Below, in pieces: positions 31,558 through 46,858 of a stretch of 49,364 bases of DNA. Source of the stretch: an uncultured Lachnospiraceae bacterium. Its GTDB lineage: Bacteria > Bacillota > Clostridia > Lachnospirales > Lachnospiraceae. The DNA is taken from contig CANQBX010000023.1 of the NCBI GenBank assembly GCA_947589095.1, positions 1-49,364 of the forward strand, read 5' to 3'. Position numbers and translations under genes: made by a program. A model generated the notes under the pieces. It searched no databases. It saw nothing but the letters and a program-made list of their open reading frames with translations, and was not told the origin of the DNA. The stretch's first letter is position 1, and the number at the start of each line of letters is the position of its first letter.

Positions 31558-31690
31558 CATATGCCTGCTCATATGCCTGCTCATATGCCTGCTCGCATGA
31601 AAATCAGGCAAGGCATTCACCGGCGCCCTGCTCGCATGGAAATACAAGCAGGGAGTCACTGGCGCCCTGCCTGCATGGAAATAGAAAACC
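31558..31690. repeat. Intergenic 12-bp and 39-bp tandem repeats between argS and efp
   Basis: Three exact copies of CATATGCCTGCT occupy 31558-31593. The last runs into a degenerate 39-bp tandem repeat with copies starting at 31588, 31627 and 31666 (the third partial), each opening CCTGCTCGCATG or a close variant. 39 bases is 13 codons, so the plus strand stays open, but I see no ribosome site or family and call it non-coding. Confidence 0.75.
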
Positions 31691-46257: not shown

Positions 46258-46584
46258 CCGATCCCCAGCTCCCGGCCAGACTGTCATTCAGCATGTCCGA
46301 TTCCCAGCGCCCGGCCAGACCGTCCTTCAGCATGCCCGATCCCCAGCTCCCGGCAACCTGTCATTCAGCATGCCGATCCCCAGCTCCCGGCAGACTGTCC
46401 TTCAGCATGCCGATCCCCAGCTCCCGGCAGACTGTCCTTCAGCATGCCGATCCCCAGCTCCCGGCAACCTGTCATTCAGCATGCCGATCCCCAGCTCCCG
46501 GCAACCTGTCATTCAGCATGCCGATCCCCAGCTCCCGGCAACCTGTCATTCAGCATGCCGATCCCCAGCTCCCGGCAGACTGTC
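46258..46584. repeat. Tandem array of 37-39 bp repeats
   Basis: Eight full units and one partial unit run head to tail, all opening CCGATCCCCAGCTCCCGG or a close variant. The first two are 39 bases; units 3 to 8 are exactly 37. Units differ mainly at a short block (AACCTGTCA or AGACTGTCC). There are no unique spacers, so this is not a CRISPR. 37 is not a multiple of three, so it does not encode a protein repeat. Unit 9 continues directly into the palindromic element at 46568. Confidence 0.95.
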
Positions 46585-46770
46585 TGCAGGTTCCGAATTT
46601 CAGAACGGTTAGTGCTTCTTAGTGAACAGTAATTTGTGTTATCACGAAAAATGGACGTGTTTGAGCGAAGCGAGTTGTCCATTTTTCGTGATGCTTTTAA
46701 CAAATTGCTGTGAACTTAGAAGCACTTCCGTCCTGAATCCTGAGGAACATGCAGACAGTCTGCCGGGAGC
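46568..46770. repeat. 203-bp palindromic (MITE-like) element
   Basis: Perfect 21-bp terminal inverted repeats (46568-46588 and 46750-46770; outer bases GCTCCCGGCAGACTGTC) flank a nearly complete palindrome. The central stem is a perfect 16 bp (46641-46656 with 46677-46692, ATCACGAAAAATGGAC) around a 20-base loop containing GAGCGAAGCGAG. Between ends and centre the arms match with small bulges (AGTGCTTCT near 46611 pairs with 46730). There is no gene inside. It could form a cruciform or, transcribed, a long hairpin. The region 46771-46858 after it shows nothing recognisable. Confidence 0.85.
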
Positions 46771-46858
46771 GGACCACCTGAACCAGCATCCTCCCCCCTA
46801 CATACAATCCGCCGTCGCAAACCATCCGCGCCCCATCACATCTGCAGTACCCCTACCC

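Follow-up and report, generated by a model that had tools for sequence, protein, structure and literature searches.

A dispersed hairpin element of gut Lachnospiraceae, conserved as complementarity, with recurrent tandem arrays at its 3' foot

In the DNA of an uncultured Lachnospiraceae bacterium analysed here (49,364 nucleotides, hereafter the window), a tandem array runs directly into a 203-bp palindrome, and this palindrome is a copy of a hairpin family that is dispersed at low copy number in gut Lachnospiraceae. The family is real and widespread, with arrays recurring at the foot of its copies, and it is ordinary in kind, being a MITE-like element accompanied by minisatellites. What is unusual is that the element is conserved as complementarity and that, at the window site and a few others, the array includes the tip of the element itself. 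A link between array and palindrome is probable, and their arrangement is best explained by an array that grew through slippage at the terminus. To the whole reading, in which a MITE-like hairpin causes a polymerase to stall and slip so that an array grows at its foot, we assign a probability slightly better than even (about 0.52). The family offers a natural replicated experiment on stable palindromes in bacterial chromosomes, with many sites in several species, with and without arrays, as well as a concrete source for the intergenic minisatellites of gut Lachnospiraceae. Sequence-based repeat searches would tend to miss elements that are conserved in this way.

Array and palindrome at the window site

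The array occupies positions 46258 to 46584 (minus strand), where TRF reports a period of 37, 8.7 copies and 92% matches; its units are 37-39 bp long and successive copies are spaced at 39, 38 and then 37. It leads into the palindromic element at 46568-46770 (203 bp, minus strand). Eight and a half repeats of 37-39 bp entering a 203-bp palindrome, the last unit being the palindrome's left end, had been described in an earlier sequence-only reading, and the coordinates bear out both statements. Read on the minus strand, the element has its 5' foot at 46770 and its 3' foot, together with the array, at 46568. The outer arms, of 27 nt each, lie at 46568-46594 (the array side and 3' arm, whose tip is common to the array units) and 46744-46770 (the far side and 5' arm) and are 96% complementary. 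Within them are inner arms at 46611-46637 and 46700-46726 and, from the sequence and an inverted-repeat reading, an apical hairpin at 46641-46692 with the stem ATCACGAAAAATGGAC/GTCCATTTTTCGTGAT (46641-46656/46677-46692) and a loop with GAGCGAAGCGAG. The conserved core (46613-46724, minus strand) is matched over its full length, at 129.4 bits, by the covariance model R1 described below. Degenerate remains of the family's 5' motif, GTCGCGGAAGGTACGCG, were recognised by eye at 46769-46784 (minus strand), and at this site the motif has one mismatch in the copy of genome G012 and two in that of G017. The folding energy of the strand from 46800 to 46560 is -122.7 kcal/mol, against -65.2 +/- 4.4 for shuffles. 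In the frame list, frames of at least 60 amino acids over the palindrome are either short or long antisense frames crossing the neighbouring glycoside hydrolase (GH) genes.

Each array unit joins a flank part of 18-20 nt to the outermost 17-19 nt of the hairpin's 3' arm. It had been claimed that 17 bases of the terminal repeat stand in each B-type unit; the 17-mer from the palindrome end, GCTCCCGGCAGACTGTC, occurs without mismatch at 46383 and 46420, and four more units match it at 88%. Units adjoining the hairpin are 95-100% alike, and identity falls to 74-89% in the distal ones. A similar, less clean gradient is present at two other loci (L132 and L002), and a third (L327) has a short trend; the gradient is clear only in the window, and array edges tend to diverge in any case. 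The source assembly is a draft of 192 contigs, and the real length of the window array may therefore differ. In a search of its own genome the array sequence occurs at this site only, while 22 BLAST matches of the palindrome resolve to 14 places besides the palindrome itself.

The hairpin sits between two genes of equal direction, a GH31 gene upstream (Pfam PF01055; 46859-49339, minus strand) and a GH3 gene downstream (Pfam PF00933/PF01915; 43537-46194, minus strand). The best eight named relatives of the GH3 gene all come from uncultured Lachnospiraceae with isolates labelled Lapin. Just upstream of the GH31 gene start, a second element of the family is found at L003 (G000:C132), L167 (G017:C2:89346), L040 and L041; on contig C2 of G017 elements lie at 89346 and 92098, so that the GH31 gene is apparently flanked on both sides. 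Comparison by eye of the place corresponding to the window site finds the element in three species (the window's own, L049 and L050) and a remnant of it in L051 and L052, and it was not seen in L055. In L054 the 5' motif and array-like units are kept and the palindrome is absent; retention of the motif makes loss of the hairpin the likelier explanation there. The window palindrome is probably an old copy that is no longer mobile, and we infer that it arrived by transposition.

Architecture, pairing and mobility of the family

A side-by-side reading of the copies gives a shared architecture of 5' motif GTCGCGGAAGGTACGCG, outer arm, core, matching outer arm and a 3' foot CGCTG, the core holding conserved unpaired bases and a variable apical hairpin. 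With a script that required the motif (at most three mismatches) together with an arm able to pair, 71 distinct sequences were collected from loci other than the GH3 loci L049-L128. The window copy, whose motif is too degenerate for the script, was added by hand to give 72 entries, which include orthologous sites and both halves of composite elements. The collected elements are 166-315 nt long. In five genomes searched, a longer form of the motif often occurs in pairs of opposite orientation, most of them separated by 310 to 1050 bp, which indicates that many elements are composites in which two hairpins face each other across a linker; some composites hold arrays between the two hairpins. At one locus (L230, 1654-4541, on G017:C8) an inverted pair of elements 2.9 kb apart encloses an EamA transporter gene, a gene with a tRNA-binding domain and one further frame, possibly as cargo, and the neighbouring frames resemble rsmG and parA by eye.

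Conservation extends to a core of roughly 110-160 nt and to pairing between the outer arms, whose own sequence is nearly free. In an alignment of 24 copies from one subfamily group, other than the window copy, both partners have changed in 47 of 71 pairs (25 of 27 in the outer arms) and 96.2% of the cells are paired. None of 500 shuffles was as well paired, and shifting the partner by one column lowers the figure to 46%. The same is evident in the genus of genomes G071 and G323, in which nine copies of 277-290 bp have cores that are 94% identical between copies and arms that are 60-62% identical (minimum about 40%), while the two arms within one copy are 94-98.5% complementary.

It is a tentative and on balance doubtful idea that this is a mobile DNA hairpin selected for its fold and not its sequence, whose arms are rewritten pairwise, either through fold-back copying as the element transposes or when an extruded hairpin is repaired, and that the same fold-back and slip-back copying at the foot seeds the flank arrays. 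Arms rewritten as a pair would account for arm identity down to 40% between copies beside complementarity of 94-98.5% within a copy, and if the arms are free in this sense, one core could switch transposases via newly acquired ends. Two narrower proposals were set aside. A reset of the arms at each transposition drew on the observation that, at equal core identity (the 0.90-0.95 bin), arm identity is 0.87 in pairs with shared flanks and 0.73 in others; pairs with shared flanks do keep their arms better, but the set held composites with common linkers and the comparison is not decisive. The proposal that the arms are inverted copies of the local flank was dropped for L317, since the empty site described below has the palindrome, arms included, as the insertion.

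Within the window's genus, the core and the terminal motif are found in the same nine of 26 genomes. The covariance model R1 of the core, built from 21 sequences of the source genome and related ones (among them the G017 copy of the window site), has matches in 21 of 299 Lachnospiraceae genomes, in 20 genera, and in seven of 295 genomes at the level of the order, of which two lie beyond the family. Mobility is most readable in the G071/G323 genus, where 13 copies from one search were put through an automatic test for an 8-9 bp target duplication with inverted ends. Nine passed (eight exactly, one with one mismatch) and four failed (L359, L362, L368 and L371). One of the latter, L359, which is the same copy as L317, has an empty site in G323, the G071 site bearing a 9-bp near-duplication, CTTATTTCA/CTTATTTAA. 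The target duplications and the empty site identify the element in this genus as transposable. In the window's genus, a flank-joined search and alignments of three sites gave no readable empty site or target duplication, because the intergenic flanks are too diverged.

By eye, the terminal repeats differ by genus, being GTWACAGTTC-like in G071/G323, GGGGCTGTCGCACAAA-like in G322 and GCACATGGTCGCGG in the window's genus, and judging from these sequences the ends that enclose the core seem to change from genus to genus. The G322 loci with GGGGCTGTCGCACAAA-like inverted-repeat ends are L377, L379 and L381. Near-precise loss of the hairpin with the foot motifs kept was recognised by eye at three sites (L054; G010:C12 compared with G000:C78; G014:C69 compared with G000:C72). 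Hairpin-forming repeats are in general prone to deletion, as PMC3733652 also states.

A much smaller hairpin, with ends near GCATGGAAATA and a loop near GTCACTGGCGC, is present in two tandem copies at 31595-31682 of the window. Similar small hairpins with other stems lie inside or beside large elements at L159, L162, L006 and L007, and a stretch related to the small hairpin (query about 412-493) has matches at many places in the genus. These hairpins are perhaps a second, smaller family with variable stems; a script collection of that family obtained almost nothing.

Arrays at the foot and how they may arise

TRF was run around the 72 entries, with 587 windows of 150 nt farther out in the same loci as controls. 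Of the 72 entries, 23, representing about 15 distinct sites, have an array no more than 150 nt from the 3' foot, compared with 4 of 587 controls; on the 5' side the count is 6 of 72, some of these arrays being unrelated to the element. The corresponding Fisher P values, 3e-20 for the 3' foot and 2e-4 for the 5' side, are too small, since some entries are orthologues of one site or the two halves of one composite. The units are locus-specific, those of most sites being unrelated to one another. Recurrence at the 3' foot with units peculiar to each site makes a chance juxtaposition unlikely. The sequence-only reading had named an array found at many sites without the palindrome as a sign of such chance, and L054 does have array-like units with no palindrome, but it keeps the 5' motif. 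That reading had also asked whether arrays always abut the same terminus: the 3' foot is favoured, and 49 of 72 entries have no array within 150 nt of it.

In seven of the 72 entries array and 3' foot overlap, by 18-26 nt at L135, L023, L040 and the window and by 4-5 nt at L132, L002 and L007. A copy of the arm tip in the flank was scored at 13 of 16 bases or better, with each tip compared with the flanks of other entries as the control. On this test four of the 72 entries have a copy of the 3' arm tip in their 3' flank (L135, L003, L040 and the window; 39 of 5084 mismatched pairings), and these tip-carrying arrays amount to three sites, L003 and L040 being the same site in two species. In the 5' flank the tip is copied in 1 of 72 (L048; 5 of 5084 mismatched pairings). 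The presence of the element's tip inside the unit is thus the exception and was rejected as a rule. Since no more than three sites in the genus have units that include the tip, most arrays are linked to the hairpin by proximity alone.

Outside the genus the link is weak: arrays accompany 4 of 26 elements, and 5 of 52 foot windows contain one compared with 11 of 304 controls (P = 0.07; the script over-extended a few arms when placing the feet). One of these elements, at L327, has a 46-bp unit repeated five times that holds the 3' arm, and on its 5' side a 26-bp array with the arm tip; among four further copies in its genome, the arrays of two lie on the same side, and the other two have none.

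We infer both the mechanism of array growth and its direction. Once inserted, a stable hairpin would hinder replication, and a polymerase arriving from the 3' side would copy the flank and then stall at the foot or partway into the stem. The stalled 3' end could slip back and so duplicate the stretch just copied. A stall inside the stem, after 17-19 nt in the window, would place the arm tip in every unit, and an arm tip in each unit would make the slip repeatable, so that the array grows at the hairpin. Stalling and slipping of this kind would lead to arrays near the foot, a unit of its own at each site, the tip in few units and the youngest window units at the hairpin. The sequence-only reading had proposed slippage or end-joining at the terminus; the excess of 3'-foot arrays over controls and the identity gradient in the window favour slippage, and nothing requires end-joining. 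Replication direction was taken from GC skew (over 20 kb at 19 matches and over 3 kb at the 72 entries). No clear difference emerged at either scale: of the 72 entries, those in the leading sense make up 13 of the 17 whose foot has an array close by and 32 of the 55 others, a difference too small for these numbers, and GC skew did not bear out the bias in replication direction expected under a lagging-strand model.

The order of events could be the reverse, with a minisatellite present first, the element inserted at its edge and the 17 shared bases copied into the arm from the array. The array-like units without a palindrome at L054 would fit such a history, as would the fact that most arrays near other copies are without the arm tip. 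However, the motif kept at L054 resembles hairpin loss, the window array lies on one side of the element only, and the arrangement recurs elsewhere with unrelated sequences. Moreover, the bases in common form one half of an inverted pair peculiar to the locus, and this pair is also present in the G017 copy, where there are only about three diverged units; we consider the minisatellite-first history quite unlikely. A unit of arm tip plus flank such as that in the window could likewise come from cycles of insertion and imprecise excision, if every round left the arm tip and a target duplication behind as a footprint, and the three sites resembling near-precise hairpin loss are compatible with this. 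The target duplications of 8-9 bp nevertheless fall short of the flank part of the window unit, which is 18-20 nt long, and unit length varies widely between sites, which leaves this route very improbable.

A different objection concerns the nature of the element itself, which might be a structured RNA under selection (a processed mRNA hairpin, an attenuator or an sRNA), with the arrays incidental. The covariation is very strong, the window copy lies between two genes of the same direction and, on crude ORF calls, 44 of 71 elements have their 5' end behind a gene of the same direction, many of them at a distance of 10-90 nt; 26 of 71 nevertheless follow an oppositely oriented gene, and the copies are dispersed, with target duplications. 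If the pairing were in RNA, G.U should be the favoured mismatch on one of the strands. The mismatches in 60 distinct outer arms are 31 G.T and 29 A.C, a balance that fits maintenance at the level of DNA better than RNA folding and lowers the RNA explanation as a first choice; the nine G071/G323 copies have few mismatches, leaning to G.T, which is the weak point of the argument and leaves it not settled. Rfam gave no matches in the window, and in 15 related loci the matches at or near elements were below threshold and mainly to hairpin-like miRNA models, so that no Rfam family reaches threshold in the elements examined. The sole match above threshold in those 15 loci is a Clostridiales-1 RNA (RF01699, 137 bits) at 2939-3110 of L333, about 1.3 kb from one element. 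On balance we regard a structured RNA as unlikely.

Comparison with known systems

Full-text literature searches, in which titles and the starts of abstracts were screened, returned no paper about this hairpin element. REP and BIME sequences share several of its traits. In the main text of PMC3733652, REPs are intergenic palindromes, frequently in inverted pairs and mainly downstream of coding regions, and are reported to be tandemly reiterated together with flanking DNA; intergenic palindromes, inverted pairs, a position mainly downstream of genes and tandem repetition with flank are likewise features of the elements described here. The GTAG and CGTC superfamilies of that account are, however, 20-40 bp long and carry a GTAG or CGTC tag, whereas the present elements are 166-315 nt long and carry the motif GTCGCGGAAGGTACGCG. 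The same main text contains none of the strings Clostridi-, Firmicutes and Lachnospir-. A transposase search covering the Y1 family (PF01797) found it in three of nine carrier genomes and seven of 17 non-carriers, several of these genomes being incomplete. An origin from REP/RAYT systems was rejected, since Y1_Tnp does not track the element and both size and tag are wrong.

The element works like a MITE, and in the G071/G323 genus it has the MITE features for which we looked. It is short, non-coding and dispersed, has terminal inverted repeats and is apparently without a transposase gene, at 203 bp in the window and 277-290 bp in the nine G071/G323 copies. Target duplications of 8-9 bp (in 9 of 13 copies) and one empty site were seen in that genus and not in the window's, where the flanks are too diverged. 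It differs from MITEs in being almost entirely one hairpin, in having outer arms conserved by complementarity and not by sequence and, by eye, in having terminal repeats that differ between genera.

The BOX elements of Streptococcus pneumoniae and S. suis, as described in the relevant passages of PMC3049150, combine a mobile stem-loop repeat with a variable tandem array, boxB. The likeness lies in a mobile stem-loop associated with a variable array, and some composites of the present family do hold arrays between two hairpins. Compared by description, boxB is a module common to its loci, whereas the array units here are locus-specific; the array here may also include the arm tip of the hairpin itself and may be situated outside a single hairpin. 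MITEs and the pneumococcal BOX elements are the nearest analogues of this hairpin and its arrays.
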